Below are positions 28,122-34,578 of a stretch of 64,000 bases of DNA, piece after piece. Position 1 is the first letter of the stretch; every line of letters begins with the position of its first letter. This DNA comes from Nocardiopsis mwathae (GTDB taxonomy: Bacteria > Actinomycetota > Actinomycetes > Streptosporangiales > Streptosporangiaceae). The stretch lies in contig NZ_JACHDS010000001.1 of NCBI RefSeq assembly GCF_014201195.1, positions 1,798,001 to 1,862,000 on the forward strand. Reading direction: 5' to 3'. Made by a program: the position numbers and the translations under genes. Below the pieces are notes generated by a model, which did no database searches, was not told the DNA's origin, and saw nothing but the letters and a program-made list of their open reading frames with translations.

Positions 28122-29921
28122 TCAGCCCTCGCGCAGAATCCGCACCAGGCGGCTGTGCCGGGGGAGGGACGGGATCTCCCGGACGGCCCGGGCCAGGGCG
28201 GGGCCGGACGCGTGTACGACCGACAGGTGGTGCCGCGCCCGGGTGACGGCCGTATAGACCTGCGGGCGCGACCCGCGGGTCTGCGGACCGAACACCGCGA
28301 CCACCGCCGGCCACCGCCCGCCGTGCGCCGCGGCCACGGTGATGGCCCACCCCGGGCGCAGGTGCGCGGCGTCGGCGAGGCCGACCGACGTACCATCGGG
28401 CAGCTCCACCGCGAGGCCGCCGCCCTCCACCGCGCGCAGGTGGCCGACATCGCCCGCCGCGTAGCCCGGTCCATCGGCCGCCAGCAGCACCCGGTCGCCC
28501 GGGTCCACGCCGTTGTACGCCCCCGGACCCGGGTTGAACCGGGCCTTGCAGGCCGCGTTCAGCGCGTCGGCGCCCGCCTCGCCGCCCCGCGTCGCGGCGA
28601 CGATCTGCACCTCCTCGGCGGGGATGCCCACCGCGCGCGGGATCGAGTCGCCGATGAGCTGCAGCGTGCGATGCGCCGCCTCGGCGCCGGATCCCGCGGG
28701 CACGACCACGACCTCCCGCCGCGGGGCCGCCACCTCGCCCAGCTCCCCGCCCGCGACCAGGGCCGCCAGCTCGGCCAGCGGGCCGGCCCCGGCGGCGTCC
28801 GGCAGTTCCGCCACGGCCAGCGCACGTGACGCCGCGAGGTCGGCGACCACCTGCCCCGGGCCGACCGACGGTGCCTCGGCCGGGTCGGCGACCAGCACCA
28901 GGTGGGTGCCGTCCGCGCACGCCTCCACCAGCGCCGCCGCGTGCTCCACGTCCAGCGCCATCGCGTCGGTGACGACGACCAGCCCCGCCTCGACGGGGCG
29001 CTCGGCGCCGCGCCCGAACGCGCCGGGGCCGCGGCACTCCAGCAGCCGCGCCAGCGGAACGGCCACGGCGCCCGCCCCGCCGTCGCCCAGGGCCGTCAGC
29101 TCCGCGTTGAGCGCGGCCGCGGCCTGCGCGGTGGGCGCGGCGACGGCGACACCGAGTTCGCTCTCGGCCCCGATGTCGGCGGCGCACGCCACCACGTGGG
29201 CGACGGCCGCGCGCGACCCCGCACCGTGCGTCAGGACCGACACACCCCGCAGCGCCACCGTGACCAGCGCGGCGACGGTCTCCGGGGCGATCTCGACGCC
29301 GAGGCGCGCCGCCGTGGCCGCGACGGTCTCGGCGGCGGTCGCCGAATCCATGACCGGCTCGCCGGTGCCCGACAGCCGCACCAGGCCCTCACCCAGGTCC
29401 TGCTCGGCCAGGCCGAGGCGCGCCAGGCCGTAGTGCCGCTCGGGCTCGGGCATCTCGGCGGCCTCCCCGCCCTCGCCGAAGGGGTCGCCGTCGTCCGGGA
29501 AGGACTCGAACACCATGACGCCGCCGTCGTCGAGGGCCGCCGTCATCGCGGCCTCGGCCGTGCGGACCCCGGCCGCGCGCACCGCCCGCGCCAGCCGCCG
29601 CTCCTCGATGGCGGTGTGGCCCTCGCGCGCCGCGCGGCCCAGCAGGTGGGCGACGATCGCGCGGCCGCGCCGCGGGTCGTCGGGAGAGGGGCCCTCGCCC
29701 AGCGCCCGCCGCGCGCAGTGGTCGGCCTGCTCCGGGGTGATGCGGGGGAGGGCCAGCAGCCGCCACGGGTCGGCGTCCAGCTCCTCGGCGGCCCCCGGCC
29801 CCAGCACACCCACCAGCGGCTCCGCCAGGGGTTCGGGCGCGCCCAGCCGCGCCAGCACCGCGCGGGTGCGCTCGACGGGGCCGCCGCCCTGGGACCCCGC
29901 CGCGATCGGTGCCTCGGACAT
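28122..29921 (-). CDS. RecD2-like helicase-family protein with degenerate ATPase motifs
   Basis: The ATG at 29921 follows AAAGGA by seven bases and gives 599 residues. An HhH-like region (about 50-75, LLALPRITPEQADHCARRAL) and a following acidic linker match the N-terminus of RecD2. A two-RecA-like layout follows, and the C-terminus ends with YTAVTRARHHLSVV, the UvrD_C_2/motif VI signature. At the expected Walker A site (GGPGTGKT) it has THGAGSRAA at 231-239, without the Lys-Thr pair. The Walker B region reads VVVTDAMALD rather than a DE box. ATP hydrolysis is therefore unlikely. The intact 599-codon frame argues that it is kept for another role, such as DNA or partner binding. Confidence 0.7.
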   Translation of the reverse strand: MSEAPIAAGSQGGGPVERTRAVLARLGAPEPLAEPLVGVLGPGAAEELDADPWRLLALPRITPEQADHCARRALGEGPSPDDPRRGRAIVAHLLGRAAREGHTAIEERRLARAVRAAGVRTAEAAMTAALDDGGVMVFESFPDDGDPFGEGGEAAEMPEPERHYGLARLGLAEQDLGEGLVRLSGTGEPVMDSATAAETVAATAARLGVEIAPETVAALVTVALRGVSVLTHGAGSRAAVAHVVACAADIGAESELGVAVAAPTAQAAAALNAELTALGDGGAGAVAVPLARLLECRGPGAFGRGAERPVEAGLVVVTDAMALDVEHAAALVEACADGTHLVLVADPAEAPSVGPGQVVADLAASRALAVAELPDAAGAGPLAELAALVAGGELGEVAAPRREVVVVPAGSGAEAAHRTLQLIGDSIPRAVGIPAEEVQIVAATRGGEAGADALNAACKARFNPGPGAYNGVDPGDRVLLAADGPGYAAGDVGHLRAVEGGGLAVELPDGTSVGLADAAHLRPGWAITVAAAHGGRWPAVVAVFGPQTRGSRPQVYTAVTRARHHLSVVHASGPALARAVREIPSLPRHSRLVRILREG

Positions 29922-30170: not shown

Positions 30171-31130
30171 TCACCGAGCCGGGGCGGAGGAGGCGTCGTC
30201 GAGGGCTTCGCGGATCTCCCGCGGCAACTCGACATCCTCGGCGGCGAGGACGCCGTCGAGCTGGGCGGTGGTGCGCGGACCCACCACGGCGGCGGTCACC
30301 CCCGGCCGGTCGCGCACCCAGCTCAGTGCCACGGCCAGCGGAGACACGCCCAGGCCGTCGGCGGCCGTGCAGACCGACTCCACGATGCGGCCGCTGCGCT
30401 CGTCGAGGTAGGGCTCGACGTAGGGCGCCATGTGCGGCAGCGCGGCGCGCGACCCCTCGGGCACTCCGCTGCGGTACTTGCCGCTCAGCACCCCGCGGCC
30501 CAGCGCCGACCAGGCGATCAGCCCCGCCCCGCGGTCGGCCGCCGCCGGGAGCAGGTCGTGCTCGGCACCCCGGTTGAGCAGGGAGTACTCCGTCGCGGTG
30601 GCGACCACCGGGGAGCGCCCGGAGCCGGGAGCGGCCTGCTGCCAGGTGGCGTAGGTGGCGAACTGCCAGGCCGTCAGGCCGCCCACGCCGATGTAGCGCA
30701 CCTTCCCGGAGGCCACGGCGGCGTCCATCGCGGCCAGGGTCTCCGCCGCCGGGGTGTCGGGGTCGTGGACGTGCAGCTGCCACAGGTCGATGTAGTCGGT
30801 GCGCAGGCGGCGCAGGGACGCGTCCAGCGAGGCCAGCAGGTGGCGCCGGGAGGTGTCGCAGGGGCGGTAGCCCTCGGGGGTGTGCCCGGCCTTGGTGGCG
30901 ATGATCACGTCGTCGCGCCGGACGACGCCGGTCACCAGCCGACCGATGATGCGCTCGCTGTGCCCGCCGGTGTAGATATCGGCGGTGTCGATCAGTGTCC
31001 CGCCGGCATCCACAAAGGAGGTGAGCTGGTCGCCGGCCTCCTCCTCCGAGGTGTCTTTTCCCCAGGTCATGGTGCCCAGGGCAGTACGAGACACCCAGAG
31101 CCCCGACCCGCCCGCCTGTCGCTGTTCCAT
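30171..31130 (-). CDS. Aldo/keto reductase
   Basis: The ATG at 31130 gives 319 residues. This (alpha/beta)8-barrel NADPH oxidoreductase shows the AKR catalytic set: Asp and Tyr in IDTADIYTGG near 47-56, Lys in IATKAGHTPEG, and His in LWQLHVHDPDT. The C-terminal cofactor loop GPRTTAQLDG is present. It is divergent from uppP. An AKR beside uppP is common in actinobacteria, but no link to cell-wall lipid recycling is known. Confidence 0.93.
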   Translation of the reverse strand: MEQRQAGGSGLWVSRTALGTMTWGKDTSEEEAGDQLTSFVDAGGTLIDTADIYTGGHSERIIGRLVTGVVRRDDVIIATKAGHTPEGYRPCDTSRRHLLASLDASLRRLRTDYIDLWQLHVHDPDTPAAETLAAMDAAVASGKVRYIGVGGLTAWQFATYATWQQAAPGSGRSPVVATATEYSLLNRGAEHDLLPAAADRGAGLIAWSALGRGVLSGKYRSGVPEGSRAALPHMAPYVEPYLDERSGRIVESVCTAADGLGVSPLAVALSWVRDRPGVTAAVVGPRTTAQLDGVLAAEDVELPREIREALDDASSAPAR

Positions 31131-31430: not shown

Positions 31431-32396
31431 GTGAGCATTTTCGAGGCCATCGTCCTTGGGCTGATCCAGGGACTGACCGAATTCCTGCCGATCTCGTCCA
31501 GCGGCCACCTGCGGGTGTTCTCCGCCCTCTTCGGCTGGCCCGACCCCGGCGCGGCGTTCACGGCGGTGAGCCAGCTGGGCACCGAACTCGCCGTGGTCAT
31601 CTACTTCCGCAGGCGGATCGGGGCGATCATCGCCACATGGTCGCGCTCCCTGGTCGACAGGGACCTGCGGCGCGACATCAACGCCCGCATGGGCTGGTAC
31701 GTCATCATCGGCACACTGCCCATCGTCGTGCTGGGGCTGCTGTTCGAGGAGCAGATCGACAGCGCCTTCCGCGACCTGCGGCTCGTCGCGCTCACCCTCA
31801 TCGTCTTCGGCGTGATCCTCGGCCTGGCCGACCGCCATACCCGCAAGCACCGCGAACTCGTCGACCTCGACGCCCGGCGCGGCATCACCTTCGGCTTCTT
31901 CCAGGCGCTCGCGCTCATCCCCGGGGTCTCCCGCTCGGGCGGCACCATCACCGGCGGAATGCTGCTGGGCTTCAAGCGCAAGGACGCCGCCGAGTACTCG
32001 TTCCTGCTCGCCATCCCGGCCGTGTTCGGTTCCGGGCTGTACAAGCTCAAGGACATCGGCGGCGACGAGTACGCCGGGGTGGCGGCCACCGTCGTCGGCA
32101 CCGCCATCGCCGGTGTGGTCGGCTTCGCCGTCATCGCCTGGCTCATGCGGTTCATCTCCACGCACAGCTTCATGCCGTTCGTCTACTACCGGGTCGCGCT
32201 GGGCATCCTGGTCCTCACCCTGGTCGGCTTCGGCGTCCTGGACCCGCACGGCGGTGCCGACGCGGACCACCCCAAGAAGGAGATCATCGCCGAGGAGCAG
32301 GCCGCGCGGTCCTCGGCGGAGCCCGCTCCCTCCGCCGAGCCGGGCCCGGATCCGTCCCCGGCGCCCGCGCCGTCCGCGGTCCCGGCGGTCGGCTGA
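31431..32396 (+). CDS. uppP: Undecaprenyl-diphosphatase (UppP/BacA)
   Basis: This 321-residue membrane enzyme removes a phosphate from undecaprenyl diphosphate to recycle the lipid carrier of peptidoglycan synthesis. It also confers bacitracin tolerance when abundant. Both conserved boxes are present: the Glu-rich QGLTEFLPISSSGHLRV near 11-27 and PGVSRSGGTITGG near 164-176 with the catalytic Ser-Arg. Seven or eight membrane helices are visible. A Pro/Ala/Glu-rich tail of about 50 residues after the last helix is unusual and probably disordered. It heads the conserved run that leads to mshC. Confidence 0.96.
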   Translation: MSIFEAIVLGLIQGLTEFLPISSSGHLRVFSALFGWPDPGAAFTAVSQLGTELAVVIYFRRRIGAIIATWSRSLVDRDLRRDINARMGWYVIIGTLPIVVLGLLFEEQIDSAFRDLRLVALTLIVFGVILGLADRHTRKHRELVDLDARRGITFGFFQALALIPGVSRSGGTITGGMLLGFKRKDAAEYSFLLAIPAVFGSGLYKLKDIGGDEYAGVAATVVGTAIAGVVGFAVIAWLMRFISTHSFMPFVYYRVALGILVLTLVGFGVLDPHGGADADHPKKEIIAEEQAARSSAEPAPSAEPGPDPSPAPAPSAVPAVG

Positions 32397-32446: not shown

Positions 32447-33205
32447 ATGGGGAGACCAGCGCAGCCGCAACCGCCCGAATCCGCCGCCACCCTGCTGCTC
32501 GTCCGCCACGGCCTGACCGCGGTCACCGGCAGCCGCCTCGCCGGACGCACCCCCGGCCTGCACCTGGACGGCCGGGGCCGCGCCCAGGCCGAGCAGACCG
32601 CCCGCAGACTCGCCCCGCTGCGCCTGGACGCCGTCGTCACCAGCCCGATGGAGCGGTGCGTCCAGACCGCCGCGGCGATCGCCGCGGCCACCGGAACCCC
32701 GGTCACCGAGGACGAGCGGTTCACCGAGTGCGACTACGGGGACTGGACCGGCCGCGACTTCGACGACCTGAGGCGCGACCCCCACTGGCCGATCGTGCAG
32801 CACCACCCCAGCGCCGCCCGCTTCCCCGGCGGCGAGACCCTGGCCGCGATGGCGGCGCGGGCGGTCGCGGCCGTTCGCGACTGGAACGACCGGCTGGCCG
32901 CCGCCACCCCCGCCCCCGTGTACCTCGTCTGCACCCACGGCGACATCATCAAGGCGGTCGTCGCCGACGCGCTCGGCCTCCACCTCGACCAGTTCCAGCG
33001 CATCGTCCCCGACCCCTGCTCCCTGACCGCCGTCCGCTACACCCCCACCCGCCCCTTCCTCGTGCGCCTCAACGACGTCGGCGGCTCGGTCGACGGACTG
33101 CTGCCCGGCCCCGCCGCGACCTCCGGCGACGCCGCGGTCGGCGGGGGAGCGGGGGCGGCCGGATGTGGCCGCTCGGCGGACCCGAGTGGCGGATCACGGC
33201 GGTGA
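32447..33205 (+). CDS. Histidine phosphatase family protein (actinobacterial, MSMEG_4193-like)
   Basis: The 252-residue protein has the phosphoglycerate-mutase-like fold with the phospho-acceptor H21 in LLVRHGLTA, a second catalytic Arg in SPMERCVQTA, Glu in DERFTECDYGDWTGRDF, and the late His in VCTHGDIIKAVVAD. It belongs to the actinobacterial subfamily that always lies next to DUF3090 and the kinase-fold gene. The substrate is unknown. TATGCT at 32433-32438 lies eight bases before the ATG, and no ribosome binding site is seen, so the transcript is probably leaderless. The last 30 or so residues are Gly/Ala rich. Confidence 0.92.
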   Translation: MGRPAQPQPPESAATLLLVRHGLTAVTGSRLAGRTPGLHLDGRGRAQAEQTARRLAPLRLDAVVTSPMERCVQTAAAIAAATGTPVTEDERFTECDYGDWTGRDFDDLRRDPHWPIVQHHPSAARFPGGETLAAMAARAVAAVRDWNDRLAAATPAPVYLVCTHGDIIKAVVADALGLHLDQFQRIVPDPCSLTAVRYTPTRPFLVRLNDVGGSVDGLLPGPAATSGDAAVGGGAGAAGCGRSADPSGGSRR

Positions 33206-33230
33206 CCGCCATCATCTAGGGTTGATGACC

Positions 33231-33815
33231 ATGCCCGTCTACTCTTACGACCCCCCCGAGCGTTTCGTGGCCGGAACCGTCGGCCGACCGGGGGAGCGCA
33301 CCTTCTTTCTGCAGGCCACCGGCGGGGGCCGGATCACCAGCGTGGTACTGGAGAAGGCCCAGGTATCGGCGCTCGCCGAACGCATCGAGGAGCTGCTCGA
33401 AGAGGTACGGCGGCGCTTCGGGGAGCAGCCGGAGGACACCCCGCCGGCCCCCGAGGACATCGACGACGCCCCGCTGGAACAGCCCATCGAGGAGGACTTC
33501 CGCGTCGGGACGCTCGCGCTGGCCTGGGACGCCGACGCCGCCCGCGTCATCGTCGAAGCCCAGGAGGTCGAGGAGCCGGAGGAGACCGGGGAAGACCCCG
33601 TCGCCGAGCAGATCGAGGTCTTCGCCGAGGAGGCGCCCGCCACCCGCGACGTGCTGCGCGTCCACCTCACCCCGGCCGCCGCGCGGGCGTTCGCCGGGCG
33701 CGCCATGCGCGTCGTGGCCGCCGGACGGCCCAACTGCCCGCTGTGCGGCGGCCCCCTCGACCCCGGGGGCCACATCTGCCCGCGGCAGAACGGGTACAAG
33801 CCCTCCGGGCGCTGA
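33231..33815 (+). CDS. DUF3090 protein with C-terminal zinc ribbon
   Basis: The ATG at 33231 gives 194 residues; an ATG two codons upstream is possible. The family (DUF3090) is restricted to actinobacteria and always found in this gene neighbourhood. The body begins YSYDPPERFVAGTVGRPGER and has an acidic middle. The C-terminus has CPLCGG followed by HICP, a likely zinc-binding knuckle. TAGGGT (33217-33222) ends eight bases before the ATG, the same leaderless layout as its neighbour. The function is unknown. Conserved linkage suggests that it acts with the following kinase-fold protein. Confidence 0.9.
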   Translation: MPVYSYDPPERFVAGTVGRPGERTFFLQATGGGRITSVVLEKAQVSALAERIEELLEEVRRRFGEQPEDTPPAPEDIDDAPLEQPIEEDFRVGTLALAWDADAARVIVEAQEVEEPEETGEDPVAEQIEVFAEEAPATRDVLRVHLTPAAARAFAGRAMRVVAAGRPNCPLCGGPLDPGGHICPRQNGYKPSGR

Positions 33816-33834: not shown

Positions 33835-34578
33835 ATGACCGCGTCCTTCCAGGGGCTGCCCACGACCGATGCCCTGGACCTGCTGCGCACCGGTGAGCTC
33901 ACCGTCGAGGGGCGGCTGACCGACGCCTCCAACACCACCCTCTACTGCACCGTCTCCGGCGGCGGGCGCCGCGCCGCCTGCGTGTACAAGCCGGTCGCCG
34001 GTGAACGCCCGCTGTGGGACTTCCCGGAGGGGACGCTCGCCGGACGCGAGGTCGCGGCGTTCGCCGTCTCCGACGCACTGGGCTGGCACATCGTGCCGCC
34101 CACCGTGCACCGCGACGGCCCGTTCGGGGAGGGCATGGTGCAGCTGTGGGTGGACGGCGACCCCGGCGTCGACCTGGTCGCGCTCGCCCGCGACGTGCGC
34201 CACCCGGGACTGCGCCGGATGGCCGTCTTCGACGCCGTCATCAACAACTCGGACCGCAAGATCGGCCACCTGCTGCCCACCCGCGACGGCCACCTGTACG
34301 GCTGCGACCACGGTGTCTCGTTCGCCGAGGTGTACAAGCTCCGCACCGTGCTGTGGCAGTGGCAGGGCGAACCGCTGCCCGACGCGGCCCTGGCCGACCT
34401 GGACGCCCTGCACGCCCGGCTGCAGACCGCCGGCAGCGCGGTCGCCACCGAGCTCGCCCGGCACCTCACCCGGCCGGAGGGCTACGCCGTGCGCCGCCGC
34501 GTCGAACTGCTGCGCGAGCACCGCATCCACCCCTACCCCTCGCCGGAGTGGCCCTCGGTCCCCTGGCCCCCGGTCTGA
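33835..34578 (+). CDS. SCO1664-family protein with PI3/4-kinase-like fold
   Basis: This 247-residue protein is predicted to have a protein-kinase-like fold of the phosphatidylinositol 3/4-kinase type. It keeps the expected active-site residues: the ATP-binding lysine K52 in VYKP, E72 in GREVAAF, a catalytic loop FDAVINNSDRKIGHLL at 132-147 with D140, and a metal-binding D158 in CDHG (in place of DFG). So it is likely an active kinase or related phosphotransferase or AMPylase. No actinobacterial member is characterised as far as I know. It starts 20 bases after DUF3090 and ends shortly before the convergent P-type ATPase gene. Confidence 0.9.
   Translation: MTASFQGLPTTDALDLLRTGELTVEGRLTDASNTTLYCTVSGGGRRAACVYKPVAGERPLWDFPEGTLAGREVAAFAVSDALGWHIVPPTVHRDGPFGEGMVQLWVDGDPGVDLVALARDVRHPGLRRMAVFDAVINNSDRKIGHLLPTRDGHLYGCDHGVSFAEVYKLRTVLWQWQGEPLPDAALADLDALHARLQTAGSAVATELARHLTRPEGYAVRRRVELLREHRIHPYPSPEWPSVPWPPV

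Follow-up and report, generated by a model that had tools for sequence, protein, structure and literature searches.

A RecD2-derived pseudohelicase of Nocardiopsis mwathae and its relatives across actinobacteria

The gene on the minus strand at 28122..29921 of the window (the whole 64,000-nucleotide stretch of Nocardiopsis mwathae DNA analyzed here) encodes a 599 aa RecD2-like protein, from an ATG at 29921 (preceded in the window by AGGAAAGGAAC) to a stop at 28122. The explanation that we favor, as likely though far from certain, is that this protein, at an early date, became unable to bind and hydrolyze ATP and that purifying selection has since maintained it in a non-motor capacity, for which we infer an adaptor role. 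The pseudohelicase status itself is well supported. A non-motor job in the cell is probable, given that the motor was lost and the gene has nonetheless been retained by selection across Streptosporangiales and in every Streptomyces checked. Hereafter, this second, non-canonical RecD2 locus is denoted RecD2L.

The preliminary description of this gene, which gave the coordinates correctly and left the strand unstated, had assigned the product to the RecD2 family, and the assignment holds for both the domain content and the predicted structure. The Pfam matches are HHH_RecD2 (5.5e-10), AAA_19 (1.7e-9) and UvrD_C_2 (4.5e-9); the first of these (PF14490, 39.5 bits against a cut-off of 27) covers residues 18-103 (29613..29870, minus strand). 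The NCBIfam model of RecD2, TIGR01448, spans residues 18-587 with an E-value of 8e-43, whereas the score of 146.6 bits falls below the curated equivalog cut-off of 500. Neither the OB-fold nor the first HhH domain was found in the window protein by Pfam, and only 15 residues precede its HHH domain. Homology and conserved synteny rule out that 28122-29921 is an antisense or chance frame.

The AlphaFold2 model of the window protein, built from 37 sequences, has a mean pLDDT of 93.4 and a pTM of 0.91. The best Foldseek match of this model is RecD2 of Deinococcus radiodurans (3gp8, E 2e-32), and in the VIA comparison it aligns with 3e1s, the RecD2 of the same organism, over 484 residues with Z 38.7 and rmsd 3.5; RecD (3k70_D, Z 25.4, the next best) and other SF1B helicases score clearly below RecD2. 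Thus, the comparison with RecD2 that had been proposed for this protein indicates, with high confidence for a predicted model, that the full fold is retained despite the loss of the motifs.

The losses of Walker A and Walker B reported in the preliminary description are confirmed, and they extend to other motifs. In the former Walker A (residues 231-241, 29199..29231, minus strand), alignments place THGAGSRAAVA against TGGPGTGKS, with THGAGSRAA (residues 231-239) opposite the TGGPGTGKS of active relatives, and the predicted model retains at this position a strand (227-231), a loop and a helix (237-253). In the former Walker B (residues 314-323, 28953..28982, minus strand), a VVVTDAMALD-type sequence is aligned with VVVDESSMLD, so that the window protein has TDAMALD and the DE pair is replaced by TD (residues 318-319). 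The alignments also identify a former motif III (residues 345-352, 28866..28889, minus strand; ADPAEAPS versus GDPAQLPS) and a former motif V (residues 528-537, 28311..28340, minus strand; AAAHGGRWPA-type versus HRAQGSEWPA). The motif VI-like YTAVTRARHH (residues 556-565, 28227..28256, minus strand) is kept in the window copy, as had been noted, and is degenerate in many dead relatives. An alternative P-loop, which had been named as a finding that would speak against the loss, is not present: there is no GK[ST] or GxxxxGK anywhere in the window protein, and its only lysine is K459.

A comparison of the dead and active forms of RecD2L (see below) shows that motifs I, II, III, IV and V are all lost in the dead form. 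The residues that are common to the active form and canonical RecD2 and lost in the dead form include Q215, K240, S241, R266, R270, H291, D318, E319, N483, N489, H530, R531, Q533, S535 and E536, with R266 and R270 belonging to motif Ia, H530, R531 and Q533 to motif V, and N483 and N489 to the SH3 loop; two further residues of the active form, Q349 in motif III and R390 in motif IV, are likewise not conserved any more in the dead copies. In SF1B helicases, single-stranded DNA is contacted by motifs Ia and V and by the SH3 loop, and the loss of the respective residues suggests that the usual DNA track is probably no longer intact in the dead form. The reduction of the N-terminal part appears in both forms: the active form already lacks the OB-fold and keeps the HhH domain ahead of HHH_RecD2, and the dead form lacks both the OB-fold and the first HhH domain.

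Altogether, 124 orthologues were classified into 29 active and 95 dead, with no intermediates. All 29 active copies possess GGPGTGKS, the DE pair and the glutamine of motif III, whereas none of the 95 dead ones has a lysine in motif I or a DE pair, so the motif loss in the window protein is no chance event. Frankia and its relatives carry active copies, as do several actinobacterial families with small genomes and a few metagenome genomes from the family to which the window belongs. The dead copies, i.e., homologues with the same loss in other actinomycetes of the kind that the preliminary description had proposed to look for, extend far beyond the window: they comprise all the Nocardiopsaceae copies seen, those of Thermomonosporaceae (including Actinocorallia), Actinospica and Actinocrinis, those of a Sporichthyaceae member (L050) and Acidothermus (L053), and a copy in each of the 20 Streptomycetaceae inspected. 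The sampled Streptosporangiaceae have no RecD2L copy.

A tree built after exclusion of the motif columns still unites the dead copies in a single clade (support 100/100) and requires one change only; grouping of the active copies of family f1 with the dead ones is rejected (AU p = 0.0035), so that multiple independent losses are not needed to account for the history. The data do not reject a topology in which the Sporichthyaceae and Acidothermus copies lie apart from the main dead clade (p = 0.19). One ancient loss of the motor is the simplest reading of this phylogeny; two or more losses are also conceivable because the dead copies are long branches and the active copies of family f1 fall outside. 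Recent decay of an active gene, as could have been suspected if close homologues were intact, is ruled out by the clade-wide loss and by the dN/dS values, and nearly all Nocardiopsaceae frames are open. Two orthologues have broken frames, each with two 1-nt deletions: that of a genome of the same genus (G021, L080), in which the deletions are near residues 280 and 291, and that of N. eucommiae (L035); either sequencing errors or genuine decay may account for them.

Selection acts on the entire dead protein. The median dN/dS over 37 independent dead pairs is 0.225 in the HHH domain, 0.224 in RecA lobe 1 and 0.211 in the RecA2/SH3 part, and the corresponding medians for nine active pairs are 0.199, 0.143 and 0.151 (the latter for RecA lobe 2 with SH3), indicating from the sequence comparison that every domain of the dead form is under purifying selection, at about 0.2. 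Among the positions conserved in the active form, the dead form keeps 19 of 22 in the HHH domain, 22 of 36 in 2A (400-470), 22 of 44 in the C-terminal part, 7 of 22 in the SH3 region and 15 of 74 in RecA lobe 1. Several residues are shared by dead and active copies and differ from canonical RecD2 (D51, W53, R84, R418, Q421, D425, S426, K459, W525 and W537), which suggests a kept surface specific to this family; no dead-specific set of conserved residues marks a clear new interface. A shift of relative constraint between the RecA lobes, seen in dN for some close pairs, is not significant once the variable linker is removed (median ratio 0.93 versus 0.75, p = 0.15). Given one dead clade that spans many genera, conserved neighbors and a dN/dS of about 0.2, the proposal that the gene is maintained as an ATPase-dead protein is strongly supported.

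The locus has a conserved organization. Upstream of RecD2L and on the same strand is an aldo/keto reductase gene (30171..31130, minus strand; Pfam PF00248), followed divergently, on the plus strand, by the genes for undecaprenyl-diphosphatase (BacA/UppP, 31431..32396), a histidine-phosphatase-superfamily protein (32447..33205), a DUF3090 protein (33222..33815) and a protein without Pfam matches that we take to be of the SCO1664 type (33835..34578). SCO1664 has been reported to be invariably linked to mshC (PMC4255298). This order is common to genomes from Nocardiopsaceae through Actinospica and Acidothermus, and also to Frankia except for the reductase; active and dead copies sit in the same neighborhood. 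The reductase gene is present at the dead-copy loci wherever the contig reaches that far and, in Streptomyces, its stop overlaps the GTG start of RecD2L (CTGTGAGC), which makes it likely, judging from the overlap, that the two are translated together there. Nevertheless, the link could be positional only, given the 249-bp gap in the window, the spacing of ~3 kb in some Nocardiopsis, and the absence of an adjacent reductase in Frankia and in the active copies from metagenome-assembled genomes. No tRNA or other RNA element lies upstream in Streptomyces, where the conserved sequence ahead of RecD2L belongs to the 3' end of the reductase gene. A defense system was also considered and rejected because PADLOC produced only generic RecD-type matches and the neighbors are housekeeping genes. 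A contig titled Glycomyces fuscus (L041) carries a Nocardiopsis-type copy and neighborhood, so the record may be misnamed.

The genome of N. mwathae also encodes an intact canonical RecD2 (G000:C1:3925507-3927822; L002) with GGPGCGKS and with OB_YrrC and HHH_5 detected by Pfam, ~2.1 Mb away from RecD2L. Since RecD2L has its own conserved neighbors and the canonical gene is intact elsewhere, the window gene is an old second RecD2 locus rather than a decaying copy of the housekeeping recD2. Five genomes of the same family that lack the RecD2L locus (G003, G005, G015, G064 and G100) encode canonical RecD2 and, in addition, another RecD2-like protein with 47-50% identity.

The preliminary description had suggested that the protein might bind DNA or regulate a partner helicase. 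One such partner would be canonical RecD2, for example, in a heterodimer with one dead protomer, and by raw counts, uncorrected for ancestry, 59 of the 71 dead-copy genomes encode it, versus 9 of the 22 active-copy genomes (all 8 genomes of the Frankia family and 1 metagenome genome). However, canonical RecD2 was not found in the remaining 12 of the 71 dead-copy genomes, 3 of which are single-contig (G120, G098 and G103), so that the dead protein can do without it; given also the distance between the two genes in the window genome, we consider a role as regulator or subunit of canonical RecD2 unlikely, and regulation of this helicase as a general function falls with it. The same uncorrected counts are consistent with a scenario in which the presence of canonical RecD2 rendered the RecD2L motor dispensable: of the 14 active-copy genomes tested outside Frankia, 13 have no canonical RecD2. 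If such redundancy permitted the loss of the motor, RecD2L could be a slowly vanishing relic, in line with the two broken frames and the lack of a copy in the sampled Streptosporangiaceae; the dN/dS of about 0.2 in all domains, the frames that remain open across many genera, and the persistence in all 20 Streptomycetaceae, in many of them with a conserved lineage-specific N-terminal segment, make this quite improbable.

Direct DNA binding fares better. RecD2L might be a motorless protein that sits at forks or ss/ds junctions and recruits or blocks other factors, by analogy with the PriA of D. radiodurans, which lacks both Walker boxes and still binds DNA (PMC4504706), and in the dead form conservation is highest in the HHH_RecD2 domain and over much of 2A. 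We regard this proposal as plausible but tentative: it is weakened by the loss of motif Ia, motif V and SH3-loop residues and by the lack of both the OB-fold and the first HhH domain. By contrast, it is hard to credit that RecD2L is still an ATPase with a diverged nucleotide site: the strand-loop-helix in the predicted model and motif VI of the window copy are compatible with such a site, but the acidic pair and the arginine of motif IV are gone along with the motif I lysine, with neither a substitute P-loop nor more than one lysine in the whole window protein.

Under the pseudohelicase reading that we favor, the absence of ATP turnover would make translocation and unwinding impossible, and RecD2L would act in DNA maintenance as a rigid RecD2-shaped adaptor, the HHH_RecD2 and 2A surfaces of which would bind a partner protein and perhaps branched DNA as well. 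The partner is the least certain part of this scheme. By gene order, the first candidate would be the adjacent aldo/keto reductase, and the next ones SSB and RecA, which are reported RecD2 contacts: RecD2 of Bacillus subtilis associates with SsbA and interacts with RecA (PMC12143592). A more specific version, in which RecD2L after the loss of the motor would be a structural adaptor linking an NADPH-type aldo/keto reductase to DNA maintenance, actinobacteria-wide, fixed in Streptomyces and common in Streptosporangiales, is in our estimate doubtful.

RecD2L shares with RecD2, the SF1B 5'-3' DNA helicase of D. radiodurans (3GP8/3E1S) and B. subtilis, the fold, HHH_RecD2, the UvrD_C_2 region and, in the window copy, motif VI, but lacks the OB-fold, the first HhH domain and functional motifs I-V, and scores below the TIGR01448 cut-off; ATP-driven 5'-3' translocation is accordingly predicted, on the basis of the motifs, to be absent. 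Because the defining features of a RecD2 helicase fail, RecD2L should be filed as a RecD2-derived pseudohelicase; as these proteins match RecD2 and AAA domains in Pfam, there is a risk of misreading them as ATP-dependent helicases. RecD, the alpha subunit of RecBCD and the next-best structural match, works as a motor within a complex, whereas the window protein has no motor motifs, and no recB- or recC-like genes are among the conserved neighbors examined. RecC is a dead SF1 helicase fold within RecBCD, derived from SF1A and part of a nuclease complex, and resembles RecD2L in the idea that an SF1 fold can be retained for a function other than that of a motor. The PriA of D. radiodurans, which has lost both Walker boxes, binds ssDNA, fork DNA and DnaB and is kept across a bacterial group (PMC4504706), also has a helicase fold and is the closest precedent that has been examined experimentally; in PriA, however, Lys is replaced by Arg in a recognizable box, whereas RecD2L is of the SF1B type, has the whole motif erased and is known from sequence. 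Thus, pseudohelicases as such are already known and the new element is one derived from RecD2; no paper on RecD2L was found in the literature on RecD2 and RecD-like proteins, most of the subscription literature being outside the scope of the search. The dead RecD2 of all Streptomyces checked makes non-motor roles of the helicase fold readily accessible to genetics, and comparison with the 29 active orthologues of this locus offers a natural before/after view of the change from motor to scaffold.

The dead copies of Streptomycetaceae (L124-L143) have a long, acidic, disordered-looking N-terminal tail. The segment KAADLLAAVRAVESGEKP is conserved in many of the Streptomyces tails, which suggests a lineage-specific use.
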